A DNA stretch of 53,050 nucleotides from Salinimicrobium sp. TH3 (GTDB lineage: Bacteria; Bacteroidota; Bacteroidia; Flavobacteriales; Flavobacteriaceae): positions 1 through 53,050 of the forward strand of contig NZ_JAPONB010000015.1 in assembly GCF_026676115.1 (NCBI RefSeq). Direction: 5' to 3'. How positions within the stretch are numbered: the first letter of the stretch is position 1; each line of letters starts with the position of its first letter. The position numbers and the translations under genes are program-made. This document shows positions 16,257 to 46,253 of the stretch, piece by piece. The notes beneath the pieces are model-generated. The model saw only the letters and a list, made by a program, of their open reading frames with translations. It was not told where the DNA came from and made no database searches.

Positions 16257-16607
16257 ATGGCTCTTTTTATAACAGACGAATGTATCAACTGCGACGCATG
16301 TATTTCGGAATGTCCGAATAATGCTATTTACGAACCAGATCAGGAATGGTCATTGGCAGATGAAACTGCACTGGAAGGAATTGTAACCACTCCCCGTGGT
16401 GAAGAAATGGATGCAAATGAACAACAGGAAGCATTATCTGATGAATTCTACTTTATTGTAGCCGATAAATGTACCGAGTGTAAAGGCTTCCATGATAATC
16501 CGCAGTGTGTTTCTGTGTGTCCGGTAGACTGTATTCACCCAAGGGAAGACATGGAAGAGAGTGAAGAGCAATTGTTAGAGAAAAAAGTGTGGCTTCATGG
16601 AGCTTAA
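16257..16607 (+). CDS. 2[4Fe-4S] ferredoxin, Alvin type with long insert
   Basis: This 116-residue ferredoxin has a first cluster motif CINCDACISECP (Cx2Cx2Cx3CP) and a second with the expanded Cx2Cx8Cx3C spacing (CTECKGFHDNPQCVSVCP) known from Allochromatium vinosum-type ferredoxins. About 50 mostly acidic residues separate the motifs, more than in typical Alvin ferredoxins. I chose the ATG at 16257 because the cluster domain begins right there; an upstream ATG at 16221 adds 12 unrelated residues. It lies 26 bases before nifJ and diverges from korA, so it is the obvious electron acceptor for both oxidoreductases and a candidate donor to the Nuo complex. Confidence 0.92.
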   Translation: MALFITDECINCDACISECPNNAIYEPDQEWSLADETALEGIVTTPRGEEMDANEQQEALSDEFYFIVADKCTECKGFHDNPQCVSVCPVDCIHPREDMEESEEQLLEKKVWLHGA

Positions 16608-16633
16608 TAAGTGAACCAACAACCGGAAATATC

Positions 16634-24158: not shown

Positions 24159-27100
24159 ATGCAGAACAAAACGCTATTAAATTCTGGTAAAAAAATGAAG
24201 GAGGGCCTCATGCTGCTTTTCTTCTTTATCGGTATTATGTTAACAGCCCAGGAAGTTAATGCCCAGGTAAAAGTACAGGGGCAGGTTCTTGATGACACCG
24301 GCCTTCCGCTTCCCGGAGCAACCATCATTGAAACAGGGACTACCAATGGAGTGGTCACAGATTTTGATGGAAATTTCACCATAGAGGTTCCCTCTATATC
24401 TTCTATGCTCACCATAAGTTATATGGGCTATGAAACGAAAACGATTGAAGCAGCGGCAGACTTTATGACGGTCACATTAAATACTGATGCAGCTGCTCTT
24501 GATGAGGTGGTGGTTATAGGTTACGGTCAATCGCGACAGAGAGATCTTACCGGGTCTGTATCCGCAATCGATTTAGATGATATTGAATCCCAACCCGCTT
24601 CCAACATTGGAGAAGCGTTACAGGGGCGTGCTGCCGGGGTTCAGGTTATCACTTCAGGACAACCGGGTAACAATCCTGTGATAAGAATTCGGGGGATTGG
24701 AACTATTGGTAATAATGATCCACTTATTGTTGTAGACGGAGTACCTCTTAATGGAGGGCTCAATCAGGTAAACATGCAGGATGTGGCTTCCATGCAGATC
24801 TTAAAAGATGCATCGGCTACTGCTATATATGGATCACGCGGAGCTAACGGGGTTGTGATCATTACTACTAAAAGAGGAAAAGCCGGAGTTGGGCAATTAA
24901 CCCTGGATATATTTTCGGGAATACAGGAGCCAACCGACATGATCAATGTTCTAAATGCGCAACAATTTGCACTGCTTAGTAACGAGATGCTCGCCGCAGG
25001 TGGATTTACAACAAATCCCGATTTTGCCGATCCTATTGCTCTTGGAGAAGGGACAGATTGGCTTGATGCCCTTTTTACCACAGGCCATCAAAACAACGTG
25101 ACCCTCGCATACAGTAATGGGAATGAAGACTCTAATGTATATACTTCCCTTAACTTTTTTGATCAGTCGGGAGTGATTATCAATAATAATTATCGCAGGT
25201 ACATCTTTCAGTTGAACAGTGATACAGATGTTAATGATCGACTACGCTTTGGGAACTCCCTTAAAGTGAACCACGATATCAAGGAGCAGGGGGAAATGAA
25301 CATTAACGGAGCCATACTTTCCCTTCCTACCCAACCTATCTATCGTGAAAACGGAGACTTTTCCGGTCCCATTGGTCAGCCTATCTATTCAGGAGACGTT
25401 GAAAACCCAATAGGTAAAGCGACTATAGTTGAACAAACTACTAAAGGTTATAACCTTCAAGGGAATGTTTTCGGGGAACTGGATCTTTTCAGGAATTTTA
25501 CTTTCAAATCCCTTTTTGGAGCAGAAGCGAATTTCTGGTATGAAAGAACGTGGAGCCCGGCTTACAGCTGGGATACCGATATTGCACCAAACGCATATTT
25601 ATTTGAATCCTCAAACCGGAGCGTAACTATTCTTTGGGATAACACTTTAACTTACAACAAAGAATTTGACAATGGTTCTTCGGTTACAGCGGTGGTGGGA
25701 ACCAGTGCCCAGGAGAATGAGTTCAAATACCTTAGTGGCTCTGTACAGAATTTCCCAAGTGAATCTACTCAGCAGATCAATAACGGAATTGAATTGCCAA
25801 CGGTTAACGGAACAGGATCTGAATGGGCGATCTTTTCATACTTCGCCAGGGTGCAGCTCGATTACCTCGACAAGTATTACTTAACCGGAACAGTTAGACG
25901 AGACGGCTCTTCTCGATTTGGTGCCGGCAATAAGTACGGAACCTTCCCTTCAGCTTCGGCTGCATGGAGAATTTCAGATGAGGATTTCCTTAGAGAATCG
26001 AATACCATTAATGAGCTAAAACTTAGACTTGGATATGGGGTGACAGGAAACCAGGAGATTGGGAACTACGCCTTTGCTTCTGCTTACAACACCAATGTTT
26101 ATAACTTCAACGGGAATTTTGTAACTGCTGCCGTTCCAACTACTTTACCTAATACAAATGTGCAGTGGGAATCACAGAAACAGTACAATATTGGTCTTGA
26201 TGCAACTCTTTTCGACAGGGCTGTAGATTTCAAGATCGATCTGTATCGTAAGGATACCGAAGATATGTTGGTGCCTCAATCTGTGCCAGTGACTTCGGGT
26301 TACTCTGATATCTATGTACCTTATATTAATGCAGGAGCAATTAGAAACCAGGGTGTGGAAGCCATAGTTACTACCTATAACTATGCAAGAGAGGATTTTA
26401 GCTGGAGTACAGATTACGTATTCACCTACAATGATAACGAGGTGATCAATATCAACAGTGATACCCCTCTTACTACAGGTGGAATTGGACTGAATTATAA
26501 CCTGGCACGCATCCAGCCGGGATATCCAATCAACGTTTTCTACGGATTTGTTCAGGAGGGAATTTTCCAGACGCAGACCGAAGTTGATAATGCGGCAGTA
26601 CAATCTCCGGGAACGAATCCCGCGACCAGTACAGCACCGGGAGATATAAGGTTTAAGGATCTCAATAACGACGGTAGAATCACAGATGATGATCGTACTT
26701 TTATTGGTAATCCAAACCCCGATTTTACTTTCTCTCTTAACAACACCCTGAGGTATAAAAACTTTGACCTTAGCATCTTCTTCCAGGGAGTCTACGGGAA
26801 TGATATTTTTAACGCGAACAGACTTTACACCGAAAGCATGTCGGTTACCACAAACCAATCAGTAGCTGTACTGGACAGATGGAGAGGTCCGGGAACGAGT
26901 AATGATATGCCAAGAGCAGTGTTTGGTGACCCTAACAACAACACCCGTCCTTCTACGCGTTATATAGAAGATGGTTCTTACCTGAGGCTCAGAAATGTGA
27001 ACCTTGGATATAATTTACCTGTAGAGAAATTCGGAGATGATATTTTTAGTTCAGCTAAAGTTTATCTCGCCGGGCAGAACCTGTTTACGATCACAGACTA

Positions 27101-27197
27101 TTCAGGATTTGATCCTGAAGTAGGACCTAATGGAATTGACAATAACATATATCCTGTGACCCGCAACTTCACAGTAGGAATTAATCTAGGATTTTAA
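24159..27197 (+). CDS. susC: SusC/RagA-type TonB-dependent glycan transporter
   Basis: This 1,012-residue outer-membrane transporter has a signal peptide ending at A35. A carboxypeptidase-regulatory-like beta-sandwich follows (about 36-118: [35 protein letters not shown]), then a TonB box (DEVVVIGYG near 117), the plug ([51 protein letters not shown]) and a C-terminal 22-strand barrel ending in GINLGF. It imports oligosaccharides captured by its SusD partner using TonB energy. With GH66, GH31 and GH97 downstream, isomalto-oligosaccharides from dextran are the likely cargo. susD follows after nine bases. Confidence 0.95.
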   Translation: [1012 protein letters not shown]

Positions 27198-27206
27198 AAA
27201 ATAGCG

Positions 27207-28682
27207 ATGAAACACTTTAAAATATACATCATGTCCCTGGTTGCCCTGCTCCTTATGAGCTGTAGCGACGACTTTCTTGACAGGCAACCGCTGGATACCA
27301 TAAACACGGAGAATTATCCCACCACCGCCGAAGAGTTGGTGACTGTGGTGAATGGAGCTTACCAGCCATTACAATGGCCAAAGCTCTACAATTTAAGGAT
27401 GTGGAGTACAGATATCATGGCCGGTAACAGTATTGTTGGTGCCGGGGGAGGATCTGACGGGATCGAGACCCAGGATATGGCCAACTTTGTAACCAATACA
27501 GATAACGCCGGAGTACTTGATCTATGGAGAGGCCCATGGCCGGGGATCCTTATGTCAAACATCGTTCTCGATGCAGCTCCACAAATGGACATTGATGAAG
27601 ACATAAGGAAAAGAAGCATGGGAGAAGCACATTTTCTAAGAGCCCATTACTATTTCATTCTTGCAAGATTCTTTGGGGATGTGCCTTTGATCACCGAGCC
27701 GCAAAGCTCAGACAGTGATCTATTCCCTCCACGTGATCCTGTTGCTCAGGTTTATGAGCTCATTATTAGTGATCTTAATGCTGCTGCAGAACTTTTACCT
27801 CCTAAATCTTCTTACGGTTCAGAAAATAAAGGAAGAGTATCAAAAGGAGCTGCCTATGGTTTGCTGGCGAAGGTGCATCTTACTCTTGGAAATTATCAGG
27901 AAGTAGTGCAATACGCTAACGAAGTTGAGAGCCTGGGATACGCCCTGAATGAGAATTACGCCGATAATTTCTCCATTACAAATGAGAACTCTGTAGAATC
28001 CCTTTTTGAAGTGCAATACGCTTCTAATGGCGGATATGATTTCTGGAGCAATGAAAACCAGGCTTCATGGGCAAGTCCTTTTATGGGGCCCAGAGGTGCC
28101 AATTTTGTTGCTGGTGGATTTGGATGGAATCAACCAACAGAAGAATTTGTCAACGCCTATGAACAAGGAGATGAGCGGAAGGATGCCACAGTACTTTATG
28201 AAGGAGGACCAGAATTTGACGGAAAAGAGTATGAAAGCCGTTTCTCCTTCACAGGTTATAACACCAGAAAGTTTTTAGTGCCCTTAAGCCAGGTTTCTGC
28301 TTATGACAACAGCCCAATGAACTTTCCAATTCTAAGATTTGCAGATGTGTTGCTTATGAAAGCTGAAGCTTTAAATGAATTGGGACAAACAGAACTTGCC
28401 GAAGATTACCTGAACATGGTACGTAACCGTGCAGGGCTTGATGATATTGAAAATCTTAGCCAGGCCGATTTTAGAAATGCAGTTTTACATGAGCGTAGAA
28501 TCGAACTCGCTTTTGAAGGCCAAAGATGGTTTGACCTTATACGTGTTAATGATGGCGAATATGGTCTTAACTTCCTTAGATCCATTGGGAGGAACAATGC
28601 TTCACAAAAGCACTTGTTATTTCCTATCCCTCAAATAGAATTAGACAGGAACCCGAACCTGGTTCAAAACCCCGGTTACTAA
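27207..28682 (+). CDS. susD: SusD/RagB-type glycan-binding lipoprotein
   Basis: This 491-residue lipoprotein (lipobox LLMSC, C19) is of the RagB/SusD family, which forms the hinged lid on SusC and binds the glycan. The N-terminal CSDDFLDRQPLDTINTENYP motif and the TPR-like helices (GEAHFLRAHYYFILARFFGDVPLI) are typical, as is the C-terminal ERRIELAFEGQRWFDLIR block with the final HLLFPIPQIELDRNP. It overlaps nothing and sits between susC (nine-base gap) and a SusE/F-like gene (three-base gap), so the three are one transcript. Ligand specificity cannot be read from the sequence. Confidence 0.95.
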   Translation: MKHFKIYIMSLVALLLMSCSDDFLDRQPLDTINTENYPTTAEELVTVVNGAYQPLQWPKLYNLRMWSTDIMAGNSIVGAGGGSDGIETQDMANFVTNTDNAGVLDLWRGPWPGILMSNIVLDAAPQMDIDEDIRKRSMGEAHFLRAHYYFILARFFGDVPLITEPQSSDSDLFPPRDPVAQVYELIISDLNAAAELLPPKSSYGSENKGRVSKGAAYGLLAKVHLTLGNYQEVVQYANEVESLGYALNENYADNFSITNENSVESLFEVQYASNGGYDFWSNENQASWASPFMGPRGANFVAGGFGWNQPTEEFVNAYEQGDERKDATVLYEGGPEFDGKEYESRFSFTGYNTRKFLVPLSQVSAYDNSPMNFPILRFADVLLMKAEALNELGQTELAEDYLNMVRNRAGLDDIENLSQADFRNAVLHERRIELAFEGQRWFDLIRVNDGEYGLNFLRSIGRNNASQKHLLFPIPQIELDRNPNLVQNPGY

Positions 28683-28685
28683 AAA

Positions 28686-30179
28686 ATGAGAAATATGAAT
28701 TCAATTTTAAACCTGAAGCGATTTTACGCAATCACGCTCGCCCTTGTCCTGGGAGTGATGAGCGGTTCCTGTGAAACTGATGAGCTGGAAGATCCTTCCA
28801 TTGAAAATGTTAATAATGAATTGGCACTAACAGTTTCTGAAGAAAACCTGGAACTGGAAGAACGTTTCATGGGAAATGAACTTGGTTTTACCTGGTCTAC
28901 AGGAACTAACCGGGGCACCGGGGCTGCCATTATGTATACCCTTGAAATAGATCTTGCAGGAAGTGATTTTTCAGATCCCTTAATTACCCTTGTGGAAGGT
29001 GAAAAGAATAGATATCTGGCTTCTATAGATCATGGAACCCTCAATCACAGACTGCTAAACAGCGGACTTGATGCCGGAAAGGTTTACGATCTGGAAGCAC
29101 GATTAACTGCAGAAGTTGCAGATCCTGCTGTGGAAGATCAGGTGTCAAAAAAGGCATTTTCGGTTGCTACTTATAAACCAGTATCAAGCAAGTTGTTCAT
29201 TGTAGGGGATGCAAGCCCAAACGGATGGGATATCTCTAATGCTACTAAACTGACTGCAGCTAATCAACGTGGGGTTTTTATATATGAAGGAAAACTTACT
29301 GAAGGAAATTTCAAATTTGCAGTAAGTCAGGATGATTGTTTCTGCCAGGATTTTTACACGAAAGATGCCGATGATGATAATAAGATAGTGTACAATGAAG
29401 GTGGTAGCGGAGAAGATATTCAATGGGCAGTTACAGAAGAAGGTAACTACAGGCTGAGAGTGGATCTGCTAAACAAAACAATAGAAATTACGCCTGTAGA
29501 AGACGCACCTTTCGACCGACTCTGGATCGTAGGGGATGCTACTAAAAGCGGATGGGATATCAACAATCCTGCAGCCTTCGAGCGAAGTGAAGAGGACCCA
29601 TTCGTATTCACTTATGAAGGAAATTTCAACCCTGGTAGCTTTAAGATCCTTGCAGGAGAAACTGGAGATTTCTGCGGAGAGTGGTACAGACCATTAGAAA
29701 ATGGACAGGCGCCTGTTGATGGTTCTGTAGAGCAAAGAGCAGGCTGTGAGCCCGACTACAACTGGACGGTGACCGAAGAAACTGCGGGTAGATACAGGGT
29801 TAGCCTGAACACCGGAAACAACACGATCAAATTCACTCCTGTGGATCTCTATATCGTGGGAGACGGTAGCCCAAGTGATTGGGATATCAATACACCTATG
29901 GCGCTTACATACGATAGTGGAGATTTTGTCTTTAACGGGGAATTGGGTGGTATCAATCCAACCGGAGAATTCAAATTTTCCAAATCTGTGGGAGACTGGT
30001 GTAATGGCGAATGGATCGTTAGTGCAGAGAATGGTCAGGCGGTAACCAATCCGGAACATATCACTGCGATAGGTTGTGTAGGTCCGGACAATAAATGGAA
30101 ACTGCAGGAAGGCGACGCCGGTAGTTATGAGATCAGGATCAATCTGGATACAGATAACATGACCATCACTAAACTCTAG
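28686..30179 (+). CDS. SusE/F-like surface glycan-binding lipoprotein, three binding modules
   Basis: This 497-residue lipoprotein (lipobox SGSC, C29) has an N-terminal SusE-type Ig-like domain (about 35-165). Three homologous beta-sandwich modules follow, opening with LFIVGDASPNGWD (about 168), LWIVGDATKSGWD (about 277) and LYIVGDGSPSDWD (about 386). Such modules in SusE/SusF bind alpha-glucan at the cell surface. Modules 2 and 3 carry a Cys-containing aromatic motif (GDFCGEW, GDWCNGEW) that also recurs in the genes at 32014 and 33472. It is the third gene of the susCD unit and likely concentrates the polymer for the GH66 enzyme next door. Confidence 0.88.
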   Translation: MRNMNSILNLKRFYAITLALVLGVMSGSCETDELEDPSIENVNNELALTVSEENLELEERFMGNELGFTWSTGTNRGTGAAIMYTLEIDLAGSDFSDPLITLVEGEKNRYLASIDHGTLNHRLLNSGLDAGKVYDLEARLTAEVADPAVEDQVSKKAFSVATYKPVSSKLFIVGDASPNGWDISNATKLTAANQRGVFIYEGKLTEGNFKFAVSQDDCFCQDFYTKDADDDNKIVYNEGGSGEDIQWAVTEEGNYRLRVDLLNKTIEITPVEDAPFDRLWIVGDATKSGWDINNPAAFERSEEDPFVFTYEGNFNPGSFKILAGETGDFCGEWYRPLENGQAPVDGSVEQRAGCEPDYNWTVTEETAGRYRVSLNTGNNTIKFTPVDLYIVGDGSPSDWDINTPMALTYDSGDFVFNGELGGINPTGEFKFSKSVGDWCNGEWIVSAENGQAVTNPEHITAIGCVGPDNKWKLQEGDAGSYEIRINLDTDNMTITKL

Positions 30180-30240: not shown

Positions 30241-31995
30241 ATGAAAAAAAGTAAATTTTTGCTCCTCGCGCCACTGGCATTATTCATGGCGTTGGTGAGC
30301 TGTAATAATGACGATGACGCGCTGTTAAGCCCCATTGATGAAGGGGTGAACATGAGCTACAGCGAAGTTCTCAATTTTAAAAAGGACAAAGCAAAGTACA
30401 ACCCAGGTGAGGAAGTGAACTTCAGTGTGAACGGGACTCACCAGAACACTACAGTACGATACAAATACCTGGGCGAAGTAATAGAAGAGGCGCCACTTAC
30501 CGGCACTTCCTGGACCTGGGAACCTCCTTCCGAAGATTTTAGAGGCTACATGGTTGAACTTGTAAAAGAAACCGATGGAGAGGAAACGGTAATTGGAACA
30601 GTAGCTGTTGATGTATCTTCAGACTGGACAAAATTTCCCCGCTATGGTTTTCTATCACAGTTTGGTAATATTTCAGCTTCTCAAAGGGCAGATGTCCTTA
30701 ATAACCTGAAAGATTACCACATAAACGGGCTCCAGTATTATGACTGGCATTTTGAGCACCAAAGACCTCTGCCTCTTGATGAGAATGGTGCGCCGGCAGA
30801 GACCTGGAACGACCTTTTTAACCGGGAAATCTACCTGGGCACTGTAGAAGGATTTATTGAACAGGCACAGGAGCGTAATATGGCTTCCATGTTTTATAAT
30901 CTACTTTTTGGAGCCTGGAAAAAGGATGAAGTACAGCCCGTGCCTGTAGAGTGGTTAATGTATAACGACCGCAATCACAAGGATATTAATCGTCATATAC
31001 TTTCAGGGTTTGGAGACATTCAGCTAACGGATCCTGCTAATGATGAATGGCAGGAGCACATTTTTGGAGAGACAGCTACTGTCTATGAAAATCTGGAATT
31101 TGATGGCTGGCACCTTGATCAACTGGGAAACCGAGGTACGGTTTACAATTATGAAGGTTATAAGATTGACTTGGGAGAGGCTTATAAGGATTTTCTTATT
31201 TCTTTAGAGAATCGTTTCCCAGATAAGAAGCTGGTTCTTAATGCCGTTGACCAATACGAGCAGGAAGAGATCCTTGAAGCTCCGGTAGATTTTGCCTATT
31301 CAGAAATTTGGAGCAGGTATCAGTATCAGGATCTTGCACGGGTGATCCTCGAGAATTATGAATATTCCAATGGAGAGCTCAATACAGTACTGGCAGCATA
31401 TATGAACTATAACGCCCAGGATGGAAATTTCAATACTCCTGCTGTTCTGATGACCGATGCTGTGATCTTCGCTTTTGGAGGTGCACATCTTGAACTGGGT
31501 GAGCACATGTTATCCAGCGAATACTTCCCTAATGATAAACTGGATATGAGCGCCGATTTGCGTAACACCGTAAGAGAGTATTACGATTTTCACACCGCTT
31601 ATCAGAACCTTTTACGTGATGGCGGAAGCTTCAACTTCCCTGCAGTACAATCTCAGGATGTAGATGTGAAACTGAACAACTGGCCTCCGGTGGTTGGTCA
31701 GGCTGCTGTGGTCGGGAAACAACTGGAAAACAGCCAGGTACTCCACCTTTTAAACTACGACGGCGTTTCTACCCTGCAATGGCGGGATGATAGCAAAATT
31801 CAGAGAGAGCCTTTGGTTAAGGATAATTTTAGTATCACTGCAGAGGCAGGAAGAAATGTTTCTAAAGTGTGGTTTGCCTCTCCCGATATTAACGGAGGTG
31901 CTTCCCAGGAACTCGAATTTACTCAGAGTGGTAACCAGATCACGCTTGAAGTGCCTTACTTAAAATTCTGGAGCATGCTTGTGCTCGAATACTAA
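30241..31995 (+). CDS. GH66 dextranase-family lipoprotein
   Basis: This 584-residue lipoprotein (lipobox LVSC, C21, followed by Asn/Asp residues that suit surface export) belongs to glycoside hydrolase family 66, endo-dextranases and cycloisomaltooligosaccharide glucanotransferases. An N-terminal beta-sandwich (about 40-120) precedes the TIM barrel (FPRYGFLSQFGNI, GLQYYDWHFEHQRPLP). The nucleophile is D293 in WHLDQLGNRG and the acid/base is E355 in FAYSEIWSRY; their 62-residue separation is close to that of known members. A C-terminal beta domain ends at VLEY. It lacks the long insert typical of cyclising enzymes as far as I can judge, so plain endo-alpha-1,6 cleavage of dextran at the cell surface is favoured. 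Confidence 0.88.
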   Translation: MKKSKFLLLAPLALFMALVSCNNDDDALLSPIDEGVNMSYSEVLNFKKDKAKYNPGEEVNFSVNGTHQNTTVRYKYLGEVIEEAPLTGTSWTWEPPSEDFRGYMVELVKETDGEETVIGTVAVDVSSDWTKFPRYGFLSQFGNISASQRADVLNNLKDYHINGLQYYDWHFEHQRPLPLDENGAPAETWNDLFNREIYLGTVEGFIEQAQERNMASMFYNLLFGAWKKDEVQPVPVEWLMYNDRNHKDINRHILSGFGDIQLTDPANDEWQEHIFGETATVYENLEFDGWHLDQLGNRGTVYNYEGYKIDLGEAYKDFLISLENRFPDKKLVLNAVDQYEQEEILEAPVDFAYSEIWSRYQYQDLARVILENYEYSNGELNTVLAAYMNYNAQDGNFNTPAVLMTDAVIFAFGGAHLELGEHMLSSEYFPNDKLDMSADLRNTVREYYDFHTAYQNLLRDGGSFNFPAVQSQDVDVKLNNWPPVVGQAAVVGKQLENSQVLHLLNYDGVSTLQWRDDSKIQREPLVKDNFSITAEAGRNVSKVWFASPDINGGASQELEFTQSGNQITLEVPYLKFWSMLVLEY

Positions 31996-32013: not shown

Positions 32014-33288
32014 ATGAAAAATATCAAAGTTATATCGACTCTTTTCCTTTTCGTCCTCGGGCTTACGGCCTGTAGTTCTGATGATGATATCACGGAAGTC
32101 ACTCCCGAACCTACAGCCGACTTTACTTCTGAAGCGGTTCCCGATAATCCCCAGCTCATCAGTTTTACAAACCTTGGCACAGATGCCGAGGAATTCTTTT
32201 GGGATTTTGGAGATGAATCTGAAGGTTCAACTCAAAAGCACCCTACTCACCTGTATGAAAATGCAGGAATTTACACTGTTAGTCTGACTGCTACCACCGG
32301 AGAAGTTGAAAATACAGTTTCCCGGGACATAACTGTTGTGGGCACCCCTACGGCCGACTTCAGTTATGCAGCAGCTCAGGATAACAGCTTCACTATTAGC
32401 TTTACAAACTTAAGCCAGAACGTGGACAGCTATGAATGGGATTTTGGAGATGGAACCGGTGTTTCTTCCGAAGAAAACCCGACCTACACTTATACCGAAG
32501 CAGGGACATATCCTGTAACTCTTACTGTAACAGGTGCAGGAGGAACTGTAGAAACCACTCAACAGGTCGAAGTAAAAGATGCACAGCCTGCTTTTAATGC
32601 AATTTACATTGTAGGAGATGCTTCGGAAAGTGGCTGGAACATTGGTGCTCCTGTAGTTTTTGAACAGAGTTCGACCAATCCTTTTATTTTTACCTATAAC
32701 GGAGTTCTAAACACCGGTAACCTGAAGTTTTCCACCTTTACCGGTGAATGGTGTGACGGTCAATGGTTAAATGCTCCCGAAGCTGGAATTGCAACTACCG
32801 GAACTACAGGTTTTATAGTTACCAATGGCTGCGACGGGCCCGATAATCAATGGACGGTGACAGATGAAACCAGGGGTCGTTATAATATTACTATTGACCT
32901 TGAGCAGGAAAATGTAAATTTTGAAAAGCTCAATGCGCCTTATTCCGAACTATATGCAATAGGTGACGCCGCTCCAAATGGCTGGGTTCCTCAAAATCCT
33001 TCTGAGGCCTTTGTGCAGGATGCAGTTGATCCTTTCATTTTTACTTATGAAGCCCATTTGAGCCCCGGAGAGCTGAAGTTTTCAACTTTTAAAGGGGAAT
33101 GGTGTGATGGCGTCTGGATCAACGCGCCACAAGCTGATGCAGATATAGTTAATGCTTCTGAATATTATGTGAGAAATAGTTGTGATGACCCCGACAATAA
33201 GTGGAGGGTGACTTCAGAAACCGAAGGTGATTATCTGATTACAGTGGACTTTTACAATGAAACTATACATTTCGAAGCCAAAGAATAA
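32014..33288 (+). CDS. PKD plus SusE/F-type surface lipoprotein
   Basis: This 424-residue lipoprotein (lipobox LTAC, C20, then SSDDD) has two PKD domains (about 33-110 with FFWDFGDESEG, and 112-190 with YEWDFGDGTG). Two SusE/F-like modules start near residues 197 (IYIVGDASESGW) and 311 (LYAIGDAAPNGW). Both modules have the GEWCDGxW motif. PKD domains usually act as rigid spacers, so the binding modules would project from the surface. It follows GH66 by 18 bases and is a second, differently built glycan-binding protein in the same operon. No enzyme motif is seen. Confidence 0.85.
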   Translation: MKNIKVISTLFLFVLGLTACSSDDDITEVTPEPTADFTSEAVPDNPQLISFTNLGTDAEEFFWDFGDESEGSTQKHPTHLYENAGIYTVSLTATTGEVENTVSRDITVVGTPTADFSYAAAQDNSFTISFTNLSQNVDSYEWDFGDGTGVSSEENPTYTYTEAGTYPVTLTVTGAGGTVETTQQVEVKDAQPAFNAIYIVGDASESGWNIGAPVVFEQSSTNPFIFTYNGVLNTGNLKFSTFTGEWCDGQWLNAPEAGIATTGTTGFIVTNGCDGPDNQWTVTDETRGRYNITIDLEQENVNFEKLNAPYSELYAIGDAAPNGWVPQNPSEAFVQDAVDPFIFTYEAHLSPGELKFSTFKGEWCDGVWINAPQADADIVNASEYYVRNSCDDPDNKWRVTSETEGDYLITVDFYNETIHFEAKE

Positions 33289-33471: not shown

Positions 33472-36400
33472 ATGAAGGAAAAACTACTCAAGATCTTATT
33501 TGTAATTCTTTGTATAAGCAGTATTCCTAGCCTGCAAGCCCAGTCATACGACTACCTTGCCCTGGTTGGAGATGCGACTTCTGCCGGCTACAACCCTTAC
33601 GGAACGATAGATACTAGAATGGAGGAGACCTCTCCTGGTGTTTGGAAATGGGAAGGTACTCTTAAAGGTGCCGGGGTATTTAAAATACATACCGCGCAAG
33701 GAGACTGGTGTGATGGTGAATGGTTAGGTCCTGTAAATCCTGGGGATGTCCTGCCTACCTCTCCAAACAACTATAATAGTTGGTCAGGATGTGATAAAGA
33801 TCTTAAATGGGATGTTCCGGCTGATGGATTTTATTCTATTACTGTGGATACCATTGCCGGGACGATAGTAAGTGAAGAATTACCCTATTATCCAAATCTC
33901 TACCTTATTGGTTCTGCGACAGTAAGCGACTGGAGTGCCGACCTTGCCAGGGAAATGACACAGGATCCTTCCAATCCTGCCATCTTCACCTGGGAAGGAA
34001 CTTTTGATCAGAATTATGAGTCAGGGTTCAGTGATGGTGAGTTCAAGATCCTTAGCGTGCGGAATTTGGAGTCAGGTTGGGATGAAATTAGAGCTACCTC
34101 GGCCAATGCAGATCCTTTAAGTTCCAATTCTTTTGTAGTGGAAGAAGGAGGAACCGGCAATGATTTTAAGTGGCAAATTACTGATGCTAATCGTGGCAGT
34201 TACCGTATCACATTAAACCTTGACACGCAGTCTATAAATTTTGAAAGACTTGATTATTATCCAAATCTTTATGTTTTTGGAGATGCGACAGCTAAAGGTT
34301 GGTATACAGAGTCAGAAGACCAGAAATTCACTCAGGATGAGACAAATCCTGAAGTGTTCAGTTATAGAGGAAATTTTGTTCTGGGAAGCTTTAAAATTCA
34401 CACATACGTCGGTGGTTTTAGTTGGGGGGATTACATTGTCCCCACCGCGGCAGACCAGGATATTTCAGCTACTGATTATGAGATAAACAGACAGGGACAG
34501 GGCAATGACTTTAACTGGTCAATTTCCGAGGCCGGAATTTATACAATTACCTTAAACCAGGCTGCCAATACCATAAACATGATTTTGGATACAGATGGTG
34601 ATGGCACAAAAGACAGTGAAGATGCTTTCCCTGAAGATCCTGAAGAAGATACCGACACAGATGGGGATGGTACAGGTAATAATGCAGACACAGATGATGA
34701 CGGAGACAAACAAACAGATGAAGATGAGTTTGCATGTGGCTCTGATCCTTTAGATCCCTCCTCTGTTTCAACTGATACAGATGCTGATAATATTCCAGAT
34801 TGTGTGGACACAGATGATGACGGGGATGGAGTAAACGATGAAGAAGATGTATTTCCTCTTGATAAAAATGAAACTACTGACACAGATAGTGATGGTACCG
34901 GTAATAATGCAGATACAGATGACGACGGCGATGGACAATCAGACGAACATGAGACCGCCTGTGGTTCCGACCTCTTAGACGTTTCTTCTGTTTCAATTGA
35001 CACTGACTCTGATAATATTCCCGATTGTGTGGACCCGGATGATGACGGGGATGGAGTAAACGATGAAGAGGATGCATTTCCTCTTGATAAGGATGAAACA
35101 ACCGATACAGATAGAGATGGAACAGGTAACATTGCTGATACTGATGATGATAATGACGGTCAGATCGATGAACATGAAACTTCATGTGGTTCAGATCCCT
35201 TAGATGCATCTTCAGTTTCTACTGATACTGACTCTGACGGAATACCCGATTGTGTAGATTCTAATGATGATACCGATACCGACTCCGATGGAATTCCTGA
35301 TGTGACAGATACCGACGACGATAACGACGGACAATCAGACGAACATGAGATCGCTTGTGGTTCAGATCCATTAGACGCTTCTTCCGTTTCTACTGACACT
35401 GATTCTGATAATATTCCTGATTGTGTGGACCCGGATGACGATGGGGATGGCGTGAATGACGAAGAAGATGCATTTCCTCTGAATCCTTCCGAAGATACAG
35501 ACACCGATAATGATGGAATAGGTAATAACGCAGATATAGATGACGACGGCGACGGGCAGTCAGACGAAGATGAGATCGCCTGTGATTCGGATACCTTAGA
35601 CCCTTCTTCCATTTCTACTGACACTGATTCTGATAATATTCCTGATTGTGTGGACCCGGATGACGATGGGGATGGCGTGAACGATGAAGAAGATGCATTC
35701 CCGCTTGATGCCACCGAAGATACCGATACAGATAACGATGGGATTGGGGACAACACCGATACAGATGATGATGGTGATGGGCAATCAGATGAAGATGAAC
35801 TTGCATGCGAGTCCGATCCTTTAGATGCTTCCTCTGTTGCAATTGATGCCGACAATGACGGAATCCCCGACTGTGTGGATTCCATTGATGATACTGATAC
35901 AGATTCTGATGGAATTCCCGATGTGACTGATGCAGATGATGATAATGACGGACAAACAGATGAAGATGAGAACTCCTGTGGTTCTGATCCTTTGAATTCG
36001 GCCTCGATCTCCATTGATACAGATTCCAATAACATCCCGAATTGTGTAGATACAGATGATGATGGAGATGGAGTAAACGATGAAGAAGATGCATTCCCGC
36101 TTGATGCAACGGAAAATACGGATACCGATAATGATGGAGTAGGAAACAATGCAGATACAGATGATGACGGTGATGGGCAATTTGATGAAGATGAGCTTTC
36201 CTGTGGTTCAGATCCTTTAAATTCAGCCTCCACCTCCACAGATACTGATTCTGATAACATCCCAAATTGTATGGACACAGATGACGATGGAGATGGAGTG
36301 AACGACGGGGAAGATGCCTTTCCTCTTGATGCAACGGAAATTGCTGATACCGATAATGATGGAATAGGTAATAATGCCGATTTCGATGATGACGGGGACG

Positions 36401-39400
36401 GGCAGACAGATGAAGATGAACTAGCCTGTGGATCAGATCCTTTAGATGCTTCATCAATGGCTACTGATACAGATGGCGACAGCACACCAGACTGTAAGGA
36501 AGAAACTCCCATTCAATATCTTGCTTTGGTTGGAGAAGCGACTTCAACAGGCTGGAACCCTTATGGAACCATAGACAGCAGAATGGAAGAGGCCTCTTCC
36601 GGAGTTTGGAAATGGGAAGGCTCCCTTAAAGGATCCGAAGTATTTAAGATTCATACTGTACAGGGAGATTGGTGTGATGGTCAATGGCTGGTTCCTGAAA
36701 ATGACGGGGATGTTCTATCTACCACTCCATACCCCTATGATGTCTCGTTTGGATGTGCACCCAATGATTACAAATGGGCTGTTCCTGCAGATGGAGTTTA
36801 TGCTATTACCGTTAACACCAATACCGGAACAATCGTAAGTAAGGAAATTTCTCATTATCCAAATCTATATATAATTGGTACCGCTACAGTGGGTGACTGG
36901 AATGCAGATCTTGCAAGGGAAATGACACAGGACCCATCAAATCCCGCCATCTTCACCTGGGAAGGGAACCTGGACCAGGATTTCGAGGAGGAATATAAGG
37001 ATGCCGAGTTCAAGATCCTTAGTGTTCGAACTTTTGAAAAAGGTTGGGATGAGATCAGGGCTAGTTCTGCCAATGCAGATCCTTTAAGTTCGAATTCTTT
37101 TGTAGTGGAAGAAGGCGGAACAGGAAATGATTATAAGTGGCAGATTACCGATGCTAATCGTGGAAGCTACAGAATCATTCTTAATCTGGAAACTAAGTCC
37201 ATAGATTTTGAAAGACTTGGTTACTACCCAAACCTGTATGTAGTTGGTGATGCTACAACTAAAGGTTGGAACCCGTGGTCTGAAAATCTGCAATTCACTC
37301 AGGACCAGACTAATCCTGAACTATTTAGCTTTAGAGGGAACTTTGTTCCGGGAAGCTTTAAAGTCCACACCTACGTTGGAGATTGGAATTGGGGAGATTG
37401 CATTGTGCCAACCGAAGCAGACCAGAATATTTCAGCCACCGATTACGAAATAAACCGTCAGGGCCAGGGCAATGACTATAAATGGACAATTTCTGAAGAG
37501 GGGATGTATACTATCACTTTAGACCAGGCTGCCAATACCATAAACATCATTCTTGATACAGATGGGGATGGCACTGAAGACAGCGAGGATGCTTTTCCTG
37601 AAGATCCTAATGAGGATACTGATACAGATGGGGATGGAATAGGTAATAATGCCGATCCTGATGATGACGAAGACGGTCAAATAGATGAACATGAGCTCAC
37701 ATGTGGTTCAGATCCATTGGATGCTTCTTCAATGGCTCCTGACCTTGATGGGGATAAAATACCTGATTGTGTAGATTCAAATGATGATACAGATACAGAT
37801 GAGGATGGATCTCCAGATGTTATTGATTCGGATGATGACGGTGACGGACAGTCAGATAAAGACGAACTTGCTTGTGGATCAGATCCTTTAGATACTACTT
37901 CATTGTCTGTTGATAAAGACGGTGATGCTATTCCTGATTGTGTGGACACAGATGATGATGGAGATGGAGTAGCGGATGAAGTAGATGCATTTCCTCTTAA
38001 TTCATCAGAAGATACAGATACCGATGAGGATGGAGTAGGAAACAATGCAGATACAGATGACGACGGAGACGGACAATCTGATGTAGATGAGCTTGCTTGT
38101 GGATCAGATCCTTTAGATGCTTCATCAATGGCAACTGATACAGATGGCGACAGCACACCAGATTGTAAAGAAGAATCTGCTTACGAGTATCTTTCTCTTG
38201 TGGGAGATGCGACCTCTGCACGCTGGACTCCTCAGGGGAAACCGGACACCAGAATGGAAATGATCTCTTCGGGAGTATGGCAGTGGGAGGGAACCCTTAA
38301 AGGTTCCGGATTATTTAAGATACATACTGTAGAAGGTGGCTGGTGTGATGGCCAATGGTTAGTTCCTGTAAATGACGGGGATGTTATGCCAACCACTTCA
38401 TATTCCTATGATGTTACCTATGGTTGTGAGCCTAATGATTATAAATGGAATGTACCGGCAGATGGATTTTATTCTATAACTGTAAATACCAATACAGGTA
38501 CGATCATAAGTAAGGAATTATCTTATCAGCCGAATTTATATATTATAGGTTCTGCCACAGTGAGTGACTGGAGTGCCGATCTTGCCAGGGAAATGACGCA
38601 GGATCCTCAAAACCCGGCCATCTTCACCTGGGAAGGAACGCTCAATCAGAATTATGACTCAGGATTTAATGATGGCGAATTCAAGATTCTTAGCGCACGT
38701 ACTTTTGAACCGGGGTGGGATGAAATCAGAGCTACTTCTGCCAATGCAGATCCTCTAAGCTCCACTTCTTTTGTAGTGGAAGAAGGCGGAACAGGGAATG
38801 ATTATAAGTGGCAAATCACCGATGGTAATCGTGGAAGCTACAGGATCACTCTTAACCTGGAAACTAAGTCTATAGACTTTGAAAGACTTGGTTACTATCC
38901 GAACCTGTATGTAGTTGGTGATGCTACAACTAAAGGTTGGAACCCATGGTCTGAAGACCTGAAATTCACTCAGGACGAGGCAAATCCTGAAGTATTTAGC
39001 TTTAGAGGGAACTTTGTTCCGGGAAGCTTTAAGATCCACACCTACGTTGGGGATTGGAATTGGGGAGATTACATAGTGGCAACCGAAGCAGATCAGGACA
39101 TTTCAGCCACCGATTATGAGATTAACCGACAGGGCCAGGGCAATGACTATAAATGGATAATTTCTGAAGAGGGGATGTATACCATCACTTTAGATCAGGC
39201 TTCAAACACAATCAATATTATTCATGATACAGATGGAGATGGGACTCCAGATAGCGAAGATGCTTTTCCTGAAGATCAGGAGGAAGATACCGATACAGAT
39301 GGTGACGGCGTAGGTAATAATGCTGATAAAGATGATGACGGCGACGGGCAATCAGATGAAGATGAAACTGCCTGTGGTTCAGATCCCCTGGACGCCGCTT

Positions 39401-40872
39401 CAACCGCTATCGATACAGATAAGGATCATACTCCCAACTGTGTGGATCCCGATGATAGTACAGATACAGATTCAGACGGTATTCCCGATGTGACCGATCC
39501 TGACGATGATAATGATGGAGTTCCGGATGCCGAAGATGCATTCCCTCTGGATGAAAATGAGGATACTGACACAGATAATGACGGAATAGGAAATAACGCC
39601 GATCCTGATGATGATAACGACGGAGTTTTAGATGAAGAAGATGCATTTCCTCTTGATGAGACTGAAACCGTGGATACAGACGAGGACGGGATAGGTGACA
39701 ACGCCGATACCGATGATGACGGAGACGGACAATCAGATGTACATGAGACTGCATGTGGTTCAGATCCTCTTGAGGCAGCTTCAACCGCTACCGACCCAGA
39801 TGCTGATAATATTCCAAACTGTGTAGATCTTGATGATGATGGAGATGGGGTGACAGATGATCAGGATGCCTTTCCTCTGGATCCTTCCGAGGATACAGAT
39901 ACCGACAATGACGGTGCCGGAAACAATGCCGATACCGATGATGACGGCGACGGGCAAACAGATGAACATGAAAATGCCTGCGGTTCAGATCCCCTGGATT
40001 CAGCCTCCACCTCTTCAGACTTTGATGGAGATAAGATTCCTGATTGTGTGGATGTGGATGATGATGGCGACGGAGTAGAGGATTCTCAGGACGACTGTGC
40101 TAGTTCAGATCCTGATAAGCCGGTAAACTTAGATGGTTGCAGCATTTTCTCTTTACCTGCCGATAATTTTACTGTTGAATCAACAAATACAAGTTGTTAT
40201 GGTGTGACAAATGGAAAAATTCGTGTCAGTGTTGCCGCACCGGGATACAACTACATGGTAAGCATTCCAGATCACGATCCTGTAGCATTGCCCGAAGGTT
40301 ATTCCCTTGATTATACCTTTACCGGACTAGCTCCCGGCGTATATCCGGTTTGCTTTACCATTGAAGGAGAGGAGGACTACCAACAGTGCTTCGAGGTGAA
40401 AATTGAGGAACCTGAAGCAGTCATGGCATCTACACAGATGAACTATAGCAAATCAAGTTTGAAAATTAATTTAGATGGTCCCGATAAGTTCTATCTCTCT
40501 ATCAATAATCAGGTACAGGTACTTACTGCCGGTACACACGATGTAGCTCTAAAGGCCGGAATGAACGAGATAAGCATAAAAGGGGAGCAGGAATGCCAGG
40601 GAGAGTATTTCGAAAGGATCTTTGTTTCAGAAGATGTGAGACTTTACCCTAATCCTACTTCAGGGCCCGTTCAAATGTACATCCCGGGACTCGACACCAA
40701 TGTTCAAATCAGTGTATTAAATTTTCACGGGGCACAGGTTTGGGCAGAGAAAGTATCTGTTAGTAATTCAAGAGTGGCAGAAATGAACCTTGGGAATCTC
40801 GAAGCAGGAACTTATATACTTAAGATTAAAGGTGAGAAAACTAATGAGACACTAAAAGTTATTATAAAATGA
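33472..40872 (+). CDS. Giant T9SS-secreted protein with nine SusE/F-like modules and TSP3-type repeats
   Basis: This 2,466-residue protein has a signal peptide (1-23). A block of three different beta-sandwich modules (A: LALVGDATSAGYNP; B: YLIGSATVSDWSADL; C: LYVFGDATAKGW) occupies about 26-372 and recurs at about 1014-1361 and 1568-1918. After each block comes a run of Asp-rich repeats of the DTDxDGxxDxxDxDDDxDG type, as in thrombospondin type 3 calcium-binding repeats: about 373-1011, 1362-1566 and 1919-2222. Periodic AFPLD and ACGSDPLD segments punctuate these runs. A small Ig-like domain follows, and a type A T9SS sorting domain (LYPNPTSG at about 2390, ending TLKVIIK). It should be exported by T9SS and fixed to or released from the cell surface, stiffened by Ca2+. 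Sugar binding is inferred from module homology to its neighbours. No catalytic domain is seen. Confidence 0.85.
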   Translation: MKEKLLKILFVILCISSIPSLQAQSYDYLALVGDATSAGYNPYGTIDTRMEETSPGVWKWEGTLKGAGVFKIHTAQGDWCDGEWLGPVNPGDVLPTSPNNYNSWSGCDKDLKWDVPADGFYSITVDTIAGTIVSEELPYYPNLYLIGSATVSDWSADLAREMTQDPSNPAIFTWEGTFDQNYESGFSDGEFKILSVRNLESGWDEIRATSANADPLSSNSFVVEEGGTGNDFKWQITDANRGSYRITLNLDTQSINFERLDYYPNLYVFGDATAKGWYTESEDQKFTQDETNPEVFSYRGNFVLGSFKIHTYVGGFSWGDYIVPTAADQDISATDYEINRQGQGNDFNWSISEAGIYTITLNQAANTINMILDTDGDGTKDSEDAFPEDPEEDTDTDGDGTGNNADTDDDGDKQTDEDEFACGSDPLDPSSVSTDTDADNIPDCVDTDDDGDGVNDEEDVFPLDKNETTDTDSDGTGNNADTDDDGDGQSDEHETACGSDLLDVSSVSIDTDSDNIPDCVDPDDDGDGVNDEEDAFPLDKDETTDTDRDGTGNIADTDDDNDGQIDEHETSCGSDPLDASSVSTDTDSDGIPDCVDSNDDTDTDSDGIPDVTDTDDDNDGQSDEHEIACGSDPLDASSVSTDTDSDNIPDCVDPDDDGDGVNDEEDAFPLNPSEDTDTDNDGIGNNADIDDDGDGQSDEDEIACDSDTLDPSSISTDTDSDNIPDCVDPDDDGDGVNDEEDAFPLDATEDTDTDNDGIGDNTDTDDDGDGQSDEDELACESDPLDASSVAIDADNDGIPDCVDSIDDTDTDSDGIPDVTDADDDNDGQTDEDENSCGSDPLNSASISIDTDSNNIPNCVDTDDDGDGVNDEEDAFPLDATENTDTDNDGVGNNADTDDDGDGQFDEDELSCGSDPLNSASTSTDTDSDNIPNCMDTDDDGDGVNDGEDAFPLDATEIADTDNDGIGNNADFDDDGDGQTDEDELACGSDPLDASSMATDTDGDSTPDCKEETPIQYLALVGEATSTGWNPYGTIDSRMEEASSGVWKWEGSLKGSEVFKIHTVQGDWCDGQWLVPENDGDVLSTTPYPYDVSFGCAPNDYKWAVPADGVYAITVNTNTGTIVSKEISHYPNLYIIGTATVGDWNADLAREMTQDPSNPAIFTWEGNLDQDFEEEYKDAEFKILSVRTFEKGWDEIRASSANADPLSSNSFVVEEGGTGNDYKWQITDANRGSYRIILNLETKSIDFERLGYYPNLYVVGDATTKGWNPWSENLQFTQDQTNPELFSFRGNFVPGSFKVHTYVGDWNWGDCIVPTEADQNISATDYEINRQGQGNDYKWTISEEGMYTITLDQAANTINIILDTDGDGTEDSEDAFPEDPNEDTDTDGDGIGNNADPDDDEDGQIDEHELTCGSDPLDASSMAPDLDGDKIPDCVDSNDDTDTDEDGSPDVIDSDDDGDGQSDKDELACGSDPLDTTSLSVDKDGDAIPDCVDTDDDGDGVADEVDAFPLNSSEDTDTDEDGVGNNADTDDDGDGQSDVDELACGSDPLDASSMATDTDGDSTPDCKEESAYEYLSLVGDATSARWTPQGKPDTRMEMISSGVWQWEGTLKGSGLFKIHTVEGGWCDGQWLVPVNDGDVMPTTSYSYDVTYGCEPNDYKWNVPADGFYSITVNTNTGTIISKELSYQPNLYIIGSATVSDWSADLAREMTQDPQNPAIFTWEGTLNQNYDSGFNDGEFKILSARTFEPGWDEIRATSANADPLSSTSFVVEEGGTGNDYKWQITDGNRGSYRITLNLETKSIDFERLGYYPNLYVVGDATTKGWNPWSEDLKFTQDEANPEVFSFRGNFVPGSFKIHTYVGDWNWGDYIVATEADQDISATDYEINRQGQGNDYKWIISEEGMYTITLDQASNTINIIHDTDGDGTPDSEDAFPEDQEEDTDTDGDGVGNNADKDDDGDGQSDEDETACGSDPLDAASTAIDTDKDHTPNCVDPDDSTDTDSDGIPDVTDPDDDNDGVPDAEDAFPLDENEDTDTDNDGIGNNADPDDDNDGVLDEEDAFPLDETETVDTDEDGIGDNADTDDDGDGQSDVHETACGSDPLEAASTATDPDADNIPNCVDLDDDGDGVTDDQDAFPLDPSEDTDTDNDGAGNNADTDDDGDGQTDEHENACGSDPLDSASTSSDFDGDKIPDCVDVDDDGDGVEDSQDDCASSDPDKPVNLDGCSIFSLPADNFTVESTNTSCYGVTNGKIRVSVAAPGYNYMVSIPDHDPVALPEGYSLDYTFTGLAPGVYPVCFTIEGEEDYQQCFEVKIEEPEAVMASTQMNYSKSSLKINLDGPDKFYLSINNQVQVLTAGTHDVALKAGMNEISIKGEQECQGEYFERIFVSEDVRLYPNPTSGPVQMYIPGLDTNVQISVLNFHGAQVWAEKVSVSNSRVAEMNLGNLEAGTYILKIKGEKTNETLKVIIK
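33541..34587 (+). repeat. Three-module block, copy 1
   Basis: This is the first of three about 1.05-kb direct repeats inside the giant gene, encoding modules A, B and C. It is the most diverged copy: its C module reads YVFGDATAKGWYT where copies 2 and 3 read YVVGDATTKGWNPW. Confidence 0.8.
34588..36504 (+). repeat. TSP3-type Asp-rich repeat region I
   Basis: About 1.9 kb of degenerate tandem repeats rich in GAT/GAC codons encode roughly 640 residues of calcium-binding type repeats. The base composition produces long but meaningless open frames on the other strand. Its last 90 bases nearly match the end of region II. Confidence 0.8.
36505..37554 (+). repeat. Three-module block, copy 2
   Basis: The second copy of the A-B-C block. 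Its protein and DNA are closest to copy 3, most clearly over the B-to-C junction (FERLGYYPNLYVVGDATTKG in both). Confidence 0.8.
37555..38175 (+). repeat. TSP3-type Asp-rich repeat region II
   Basis: The shortest of the three Asp-rich regions, about 205 residues. It ends with the same DGDSTPDCKEE sequence as region I. Confidence 0.8.
38176..39225 (+). repeat. Three-module block, copy 3
   Basis: The third copy of the A-B-C block. In its A module the motif is GGWCDGQW where the other copies have GDWCDG. Confidence 0.8.
39226..40140 (+). repeat. TSP3-type Asp-rich repeat region III
   Basis: About 305 residues of Asp-rich repeats leading to the C-terminal Ig-like and T9SS sorting domains. The final repeat ends in DDCASSDPDKPVNLDGC, a typical end-of-array form. 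Confidence 0.8.
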
Positions 40873-41579
40873 AAAACTTAAGAAATATTCTTGGTGTTCT
40901 TTTCCTTATTACGATTACAGCATGTGATAAGGAAGATGATAACATAATTGAAGAAGAAGCAAAGGTTCCGGGAGAAGTTCTCCTGATTGCACCACTCCAG
41001 AATGAAACCTGTGAAGAAGGTGTGGATGTTTCTGATGAGGTGAGTAAAATTACCTTTGAATGGAATACTGCTGAAAATTCGGAAATGTATGATCTAATTA
41101 TTACGGATCCTGAGAGCGGTGCTGAAGTAGCCTATTTTAAGAATCTCAATGTTACTTCAAGAAGCGTGGATCTTGTTAAAGACAGATCCTATACCTGGGA
41201 GGTGATTTCAAAAAATTCTGAAACTACTGAGACAGGTTCTAGCGAGTCCTGGAATTTTTACCTGGTTGGCGATCCCCAAAGTAATTACGCTCCTTTTCCT
41301 GCTGAAATAATTAAGCCCGCAAATTCTTCTTCTGTAGAATTAGCAGATGCTAAGTTGGTGCTGGAATGGCAGGGTGCAGATCCCGACGGGGACGAGTTGA
41401 CCTACACCATCTTTTTAGATAAAGTCGATGGAAAACAAGAGCCAACAGAAGATTTTCAAAATTTATCCGGTACGTCTCTTGAGGTCGAATTGGATGCCAA
41501 TGAGACCTACTTCTGGCGAGTTAAATCATTTGACGGGCAGAATAGTAGTTACAGCCCCGTAAATTATTTTAAAACCTAA
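40869..41579 (+). CDS. Two-domain fibronectin III-like lipoprotein coupled to the giant gene
   Basis: This 236-residue lipoprotein (lipobox ITAC, C19, then DKEDD) has two beta-sandwich domains of fibronectin III/SusE-like form, about 35-130 (KITFEWNTAENSEMYDLII, SYTWEVISKN) and 138-236 (LVLEWQGADPDGDELTYTIFLD, YFWRVKSFDG). No catalytic residue pattern is seen. Its ATG overlaps the giant gene's stop codon (ATGA), so the two are translationally coupled and should be made in fixed proportion. A surface partner or anchor of the giant protein, or another glycan-binding protein, is the natural guess. GH31 follows two bases later. Confidence 0.8.
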   Translation: MKNLRNILGVLFLITITACDKEDDNIIEEEAKVPGEVLLIAPLQNETCEEGVDVSDEVSKITFEWNTAENSEMYDLIITDPESGAEVAYFKNLNVTSRSVDLVKDRSYTWEVISKNSETTETGSSESWNFYLVGDPQSNYAPFPAEIIKPANSSSVELADAKLVLEWQGADPDGDELTYTIFLDKVDGKQEPTEDFQNLSGTSLEVELDANETYFWRVKSFDGQNSSYSPVNYFKT

Positions 41580-41581
41580 TT

Positions 41582-46253
<4,672 letters not shown>

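Follow-up and report, generated by a model that had tools for sequence, protein, structure and literature searches.

What might a giant protein do in a locus that already encodes a probable importer and probable binding proteins for dextran, and how would it stay on the cell that makes it? The question is raised by a 53,050-nucleotide (nt) stretch of DNA from Salinimicrobium sp. TH3 (contig NZ_JAPONB010000015.1, positions 1 to 53,050; hereafter the window). Within what reads by gene content as a polysaccharide utilization locus (PUL) for dextran, the window carries a gene (33472-40872, + strand) for a protein of 2466 amino acids (aa), hereafter the giant, which joins glucan-binding-type modules and Asp-rich runs to a signal for the type IX secretion system (T9SS). 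The reading that we favor, at a probability of roughly 0.55, is that of a multivalent protein for dextran capture, docked at the cell surface on a lipoprotein dedicated to it, which is encoded by the gene that overlaps its 3' end. This reading is based on module identity, PUL context, triplication of the modules, the sorting signal, conserved pairing with the lipoprotein gene and correlated divergence, from which we infer export, binding of dextran and of Ca2+, molecular shape and, for the lipoprotein, a place on the surface where it physically docks and retains the giant.

Architecture and glucan-binding-type modules of the giant

The giant is encoded by a single intact open reading frame with an ATG start and no internal stops, and was delimited by this frame together with Pfam, TIGR and sequence comparisons. 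An earlier note, made from the sequence alone, had described it as three blocks of modules A, B and C, followed by Asp-rich runs of about 640, 205 and 305 residues and a T9SS domain; this architecture is confirmed, as are its coordinates and its length of 2,466 residues. Behind a putative Sec signal peptide recognized by inspection (aa 1-24, 33472-33543), block 1 occupies aa 25-372 (33544-34587; A1 33544-33888, B1 33889-34257, C1 34258-34587), block 2 aa 1012-1361 (36505-37554; A2 36505-36855, B2 36856-37224, C2 37225-37554) and block 3 aa 1569-1918 (38176-39225; A3 38176-38526, B3 38527-38895, C3 38896-39225), each about 350 aa long. The blocks are 75.0, 77.0 and 80.6% identical to one another, which places the triplication far beyond chance, and three-copy repeats are found in the DNA as well; modules of different type are mutually related at 24-45% identity over all such pairs. 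The blocks are followed by runs that resemble thrombospondin type 3 (TSP3) repeats, with about 32% Asp: run 1 of 639 aa (aa 373-1011, 34588-36504; Pfam and motif counts), run 2 of 207 aa (aa 1362-1568, 37555-38175; motif counts) and run 3 of 305 aa (aa 1919-2223, 39226-40140; motif counts). These runs hold 15 C-x21-C pairs (9, 3 and 3), the giant as a whole has 70 matches to DxDxDG, and the TSP3_bac family PF18884 matches it in 10 stretches with 47.7 bits (cut-off 25). The DxDxDG motifs and Cys pairs are no more than a hint of Ca2+ binding. The protein ends in a stem that is Ig/fibronectin type III (fn3)-like by model and was delimited by its co-occurrence with the lipoprotein gene and by predicted structure (aa 2224-2388, 40141-40635), and in a type A sorting domain (40642-40869) with scores of 43 bits for PF18962 (cut-off 27) and 38 bits for TIGR04183 (cut-off 23). 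With these signals above their cut-offs, and with SprA, the T9SS component searched for, present in the same genome (TIGR04189, 2824.9 bits), the proposed link to the T9SS is likewise supported. Pfam matches of the giant to Self-incomp_S1, Ehrlichia_rpt and Cadherin-like families were taken as chance. Frames on the reverse strand of the gene reach up to 450 aa; one that was read is full of stops, and the open ones were attributed to the repetitiveness of the coding strand.

Sliced from the protein, all three blocks matched PF16411, each in three stretches (E 6.5e-19, 5.2e-22 and 1.8e-19 for blocks 1 to 3), whereas SusF_SusE was not listed in the Pfam scan of the whole protein, probably because of its Asp-rich bias. 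When block 3 was compared with all PDB sequences, it matched best to BT3088 (SGBPdex), encoded in B. thetaiotaomicron PUL48, a PUL of the same kind (PDB 9sji, 9sje and 9sm2; E 1.9e-16). A block profile of 21 sequences aligned in one piece with the three C-terminal modules of SGBPdex, the modules that match each block of the giant, at E 4e-95, a value that is partly circular because the profile contains SusE-like relatives; the corresponding values were 2e-11 for SusF and 0.008 for SusE. On reading the sequences, the "GW" position is aromatic in all nine modules (eight Trp, one Tyr) and the lysine of "FK" is kept in nine of nine; in SusF, this Trp is a ligand residue. An AlphaFold2 model of block 3 (predicted local distance difference test [pLDDT] 88.9) gave four PDB matches below E 0.001 in Foldseek, led by SusF 4fe9 (E 7e-12) and including SusE 4fch and 4fem and X25-2 of Ruminococcus Sca5. 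Template modeling (TM) scores were low (0.24-0.28 by query length), which we think may come from a differing arrangement of the modules. The SusE/F type that had been suggested for the modules thus stands both by sequence and by predicted fold, and a lack of such fold similarity, which the earlier note had named as grounds for refutation, was not observed.

Each block is therefore best read, from the alignments, as the binding triple of SGBPdex copied module for module and in order, and the giant is by sequence an SGBPdex variant, with SGBPdex-type modules carried on a T9SS-type protein with TSP3 spacers. SGBPdex has one such triple on a lipoprotein and, according to passages of PMC7618045, belongs to an outer-membrane utilisome, whereas the giant has three triples, is of the T9SS type with TSP3 spacers and is without the N-terminal SusE domain PF14292, which Pfam scans of the whole protein and of the sliced blocks did not find. 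Its N-terminus (FVILCISS..LQAQS, by inspection) has no good lipobox, with Leu before Cys14, and the giant has the type A sorting domain instead. Lacking both a lipobox and PF14292, it may function like SusE/F lipoproteins without being one, and the window's own counterpart of SGBPdex is the SusE-like gene at 28686-30179 rather than the giant. What such binding proteins contribute is indicated by passages of PMC10936149, in which B. thetaiotaomicron deleted for BT3088 is impaired in growth on dextran larger than 35 kDa, and surface glycan-binding proteins (SGBPs) become increasingly important for the binding of dextran above 70 kDa. SusE-like proteins of marine alpha-glucan PULs are mentioned in PMC11093988, four passages of which name no such giant.

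The same architecture could be that of a protein that acts mainly as an adhesin, with the nine glucan modules attaching the cell to a dextran-containing biofilm or to other cells, aided by Ca2+-dependent TSP3 runs, rather than feeding an importer. Large multivalent exported proteins are often adhesins, and the TSP3 runs of the giant score 81.7 bits with the model for MtsC, a cohesion protein of myxobacteria, which is below the model's cut-off of 350. However, the gene lies inside the dextran PUL, between genes for binding proteins and for enzymes, and its module triple is that of SGBPdex, both of which make a primary role in adhesion quite unlikely.

The stem and its downstream lipoprotein gene

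If the giant captures dextran for its own cell, it would need to be kept there. The next gene (40869-41579, +) shares an ATGA overlap with the giant and encodes a lipoprotein of 236 aa with a weak fn3 match, whose N-terminus (..TACDKEDD) fits the C-X-K-(D/E)2 export signal. The C-terminal stem and this co-encoded lipoprotein belong to a general pair that was absent from the earlier note and is more novel than the giant itself. The pair recurs, is widespread and is apparently undescribed: a literature search limited to Creative Commons-licensed PubMed Central papers found no description of it or of the giant among the matches listed. In the congeneric genome G400, the dextran PUL is adjoined by a T9SS-type gene with a diverged copy of the stem and, with a 4-nt overlap, a 228-aa homologue of the lipoprotein (26% identity). 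The T9SS-type protein with stem and overlapping lipoprotein downstream of that PUL (L047:2124-6220) is an ELWxxDGT-repeat protein of 1137 aa.

Profiles built from three sequences each matched, at E 1e-4 and among 299 family genomes, 178 genomes for the stem and 221 for the lipoprotein, the latter count probably taking in other fn3 proteins. We examined 70 stem loci (30 of the first 31 matches listed, the next 20 and the last 20), the matches listed reaching E 5.8e-25. The lipoprotein gene lay directly downstream of the stem gene in 58 of the 69 testable loci, one further locus running off its contig; 33 of these 58 had a gap of -4 nt, and a single one (96 nt) exceeded 21 nt. Seen from the other side, 46 of 50 lipoprotein genes came after a stem gene (28 of 30 among the top and 18 of 20 among the last of the matches listed), with one of the four misses at a contig start and another bordering a stretch of N; the two samples overlap in many places and are not independent. 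Within the window's own genome the stem profile matches the giant only, and none of the 12 other sorting-domain genes (13 found) has a stem or a downstream lipoprotein at E 1e-3. A class-wide sample of 295 genomes, searched with a profile of stem and sorting domain, gave two strong matches outside the family (L190 and L191), both with a downstream lipoprotein (gaps of -1 and 86 nt). No lipoprotein was found at E 0.01 for the remaining 17 loci beyond the giant's own genome, 8 of which match only from column 133 on.

Stem and lipoprotein also diverge together. For 58 stem-lipoprotein pairs from 51 genomes, pairwise distances correlated with r = 0.793 between stem and lipoprotein, compared to 0.435 between sorting domain and lipoprotein and 0.455 between stem and sorting domain. 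Stem windows cut to the length of the sorting domain gave r = 0.63-0.74 with the lipoprotein, the partial correlation given the sorting domain was 0.74, the two halves of the stem correlated with each other at r = 0.514, and the bootstrapped difference between the stem and sorting-domain correlations with the lipoprotein was 0.24-0.51. Similar contrasts between stem and sorting domain were obtained with BLOSUM similarity (0.808 versus 0.387), with comparisons restricted to the more similar half of sorting domains (0.825 versus 0.532) and with the 48 of 58 pairs that passed length and duplicate filters (0.815 versus 0.514). Linkage alone explains this pattern poorly, since on the DNA the sorting domain separates the stem from the lipoprotein.

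Several points weigh against a docked capture protein. Eleven of the 69 stem genes have no lipoprotein gene directly downstream; two of these (L131 and L140) have one beside a neighboring stem gene, and for the remaining nine any genes nearby are unrelated. The share falls with rank among the stem matches listed, being 29 of the top 30, 18 of the next 20 and 11 of the 19 testable loci in the last set, and all of these counts rest on stem matches at E <=5.8e-25. The correlation of the sorting domain is lowered by its shortness and by its having diverged further than the stem (mean identity 27% versus 36%). When partners were swapped within genomes, the true partner fitted better in six of seven cases for the stem and likewise in six of seven for the sorting domain, and nearest neighbors agreed with those of the lipoprotein in 26 of 58 cases for the stem versus 19 of 58 for the sorting domain; co-inheritance thus explains part of the signal, and covariation as proof of contact between stem and lipoprotein is weakened accordingly. 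Furthermore, TSP3 repeats in thrombospondins are not known to be stiff rods, and the giant seems accessory, since congeneric PULs exist without it.

The stem carries many kinds of heads. In 26 upstream parts (25 from the 30 top loci, giant included, with at most 500 aa taken per locus, and the whole G400 head), domain matches were to TSP_3 in 13, alpha-amylase in 7, pectinesterase in 4 and beta helix in 3, with single matches to CBM6, CBM35, Big_1, P-domain and others. Just before the stem stands a DxDxDG-type motif with a final GC, in which six columns are kept at 90% or more, and TSP3 beside the stem looks like part of a common display unit that may have been expanded in the giant. Modeled together, stem and sorting domain (29 sequences; pLDDT 90.5, predicted TM score 0.59) resemble fibronectin and other Ig-like chains. 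Against PDB sequences the stem profile gave no match beyond chance in its stem part: of 11 matches at E 1, nine fall in the sorting domain and two (E 0.45-0.47) were taken as chance. CBM113/UKD (PMC13235733, in part) was rejected as a candidate for the stem, its PDB entry 9KVN not being among these 11 matches, its presence in the searched set being unchecked. As for the lipoproteins, domain-library scans found no named family beyond weak fn3-type matches and no match to PorP/SprF. Inspection of 29 N-termini showed a Cys ending the hydrophobic stretch, followed by residues that are mostly Ser/Gly/Asp rich. One lipoprotein of the partner family (L093:1480-3333, genome G133) has a PelN-like pectate lyase beta helix behind it, and further long forms, of about 390-420 aa within the fetched stretch, occur at L055, L056, L059 and L153.

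In F. johnsoniae, type A cargo uses the PorV shuttle and is either statically anchored or released (passages of PMC12618676), and how T9SS effectors come to be attached or released was stated as open in a 2023 review (PMC10202324, in part). The giant might accordingly be released to the medium as a soluble protein that aggregates dextran or primes its use, with the lipoprotein having another task. We consider such release unlikely: in 58 of 69 loci the stem gene is followed by that of the lipoprotein, the two diverge in parallel, and a released binding protein would be expected to share its dextran with neighboring cells.

A different objection concerns where the lipoprotein acts, since it could be a periplasmic or translocation helper, a chaperone or shuttle of stem cargo, rather than a surface anchor. 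Gene pairing fits a shuttle too, and type B sorting-domain cargo, which needs co-encoded PorP/SprF shuttles, likewise has its cognate partner gene adjacent (parts of PMC12618676 and PMC10202324). Here, in contrast, a type A sorting domain is paired with a lipoprotein that has weak fn3 matches, in place of a PorP/SprF barrel. Type A domains use PorV, and those of RemA and AmyB export sfGFP without a co-produced partner, as reported in passages of PMC12618676. In addition, the residues that follow the Cys of the window lipoprotein, DKEDD, fit C-X-K-(D/E)2, which passages of PMC5080379 describe as the lipoprotein surface export signal of C. canimorsus, and the pectate-lyase-like beta helix on the L093 lipoprotein makes sense outside the cell. 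On balance a helper role is improbable, and we prefer a surface anchor.

Distribution of the giant and the surrounding dextran PUL

With the giant's own genome included in each count, the block profile matched 6 of 397 sampled family genomes and 8 of 395 sampled from the phylum (E 1e-10); within the genus, 4 of 12 genomes matched (E 1e-8). Among the genomes searched with this profile, only the window's genome has full-length blocks in a frame longer than 1,400 aa. A 1374-aa frame in G731, of the same family, was rejected as a second giant, being GH31 with four SusE/F modules and a sorting domain. This fusion (L050:8107-12216; four modules by our own sequence count) resembles the giant in placing SusE/F modules on a type A T9SS-type protein and differs in being an enzyme fusion with one module array and no TSP3 run in its sequence; a lipoprotein was not sought by profile there. 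In view of this protein, the earlier statement that the SusE/F proteins of standard PULs are all short lipoproteins has to be qualified.

When contigs from 84,980 species were scanned with sequence patterns, one further case was found, in the metagenome-assembled genome (MAG) LH_M81 of Salegentibacter sp. (59 pattern stretches, one relative), although the patterns are strict and cases may have been missed. The LH_M81 homologue (L022), 1598 aa from its ATG, has two blocks and TSP3 runs of 208 and 425 aa and lies at the equivalent place in its PUL, and whichever blocks of the two giants are compared, their identity is 75-81%. Since an independent MAG has this homologue at that place, the giant is not an assembly artefact of the Salinimicrobium genome. 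Viral contigs gave 49 pattern matches and no relative of the giant, and plasmids gave one partial match to the block (58% of it) and two partial matches to the lipoprotein (44% of it), hence no sign of spread by plasmids. In three congeneric genomes (L047, L048 and L049) the PUL is present but lacks the giant and the small lipoprotein between its PKD and GH31 genes; in one of them, G400, the remaining PUL proteins are 93.9-99.6% identical to those of the window. Giant and lipoprotein seem to be an accessory pair that comes or goes as a unit. No insertion boundary could be drawn: in G400 the PKD and GH31 genes are 89 nt apart, and the alignment to the window ends 5 nt past the PKD stop.

The surrounding genes lie on one strand (+) in the order SusC, SusD, SusE-like, GH66, PKD-SusE/F lipoprotein, giant, small lipoprotein, GH31 and GH97. 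Domain scans identified the SusC/RagA TonB-dependent transporter (24159-27197), the SusD-like protein (27207-28682), GH31 (41582-44086) and GH97 (44094-46253). The SusE-like lipoprotein at 28686-30179, the PUL's counterpart of BT3088, has PF14292 and PF16411 and a lipobox by inspection. GH66 (30241-31995) is close to endo-dextranase BT3087, scoring 711.7 bits with NF052487, just under the cut-off of 730. The 424-aa protein at 32014-33288 has PKD and two SusE/F stretches by domain scan and is a lipoprotein by inspection; its number of modules varies too, the MAG counterpart (L022:8121-9737) having 538 aa and three SusE/F-like modules (inspection). With SusCD, SusE-like, GH66 and GH31 all present, the locus is by gene content a dextran PUL, and the dextran context proposed for the giant is upheld. 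Its core gene set is that of FjDexUL of Flavobacterium johnsoniae (FjDusE, FjGH66, FjDex31A and FjGH97A), in which FjDusE binds linear and branched dextran, and the eight FjDexUL genes listed in the available part of PMC10316084 include no giant and no such lipoprotein. GH65 is present in FjDexUL and is not among the window's PUL genes scanned. A TPR and DUF6377 protein upstream of SusC (22254-23942, +; domain scan) is a possible PUL regulator. Shortly upstream of the PUL lies an Alginate_exp-type outer-membrane protein (PF13372, 20803-22074). Further away, two adjoining divergent genes (14175-16031, -; 16589-20161, +) match pyruvate ferredoxin/flavodoxin oxidoreductase, and two scanned minus-strand genes beside them match NADH dehydrogenase subunits.

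Proposed role in dextran capture and surface retention

As a multivalent capture protein, the giant would enter the periplasm via Sec and cross the outer membrane via the T9SS through its type A sorting domain. It would then display three SGBPdex-type triples, nine modules in all, with TSP3-like spacers between them, and the many sites per molecule could provide avidity for long or branched dextran. The lipoprotein from the overlapping gene would sit on the outer face of the outer membrane, recognize the stem and retain the giant on the cell once the sorting domain has been handled. A flexible or extended arm might thereby hold the nine glucan modules above the SusCD importer, keeping captured dextran near it and the GH66 endo-dextranase, an arrangement that would be most useful for dextran of high molecular weight.

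More broadly, stem and lipoprotein of Flavobacteriaceae-like genomes may form a general, undescribed system that retains type A T9SS cargo at the surface. In this system the lipoprotein would be a dedicated receptor on the outside of the outer membrane and would hold the stem, so that any head could be displayed and not released. We put this forward tentatively, at slightly less than even odds, and the pair could represent a new T9SS retention route. Flavobacteriaceae are important for marine polysaccharide breakdown. The giant shows a route by which a PUL may gain avidity for very large polymers, through multiplication of one binding triple on a secreted scaffold, and the near-identical dextran PULs with and without it (G400 proteins, 93.9-99.6%) offer a natural presence/absence comparison. 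The lipoprotein gene, found behind a cargo stem in 58 of 69 loci, offers a direct candidate, open to deletion, for what sets the choice between attachment and release. If the general reading is true, the stem-lipoprotein pair would decide whether type A cargo stays or leaves, whichever head it carries, be it an amylase, a pectinesterase, a carbohydrate-binding module, an adhesin or a dextran catcher.

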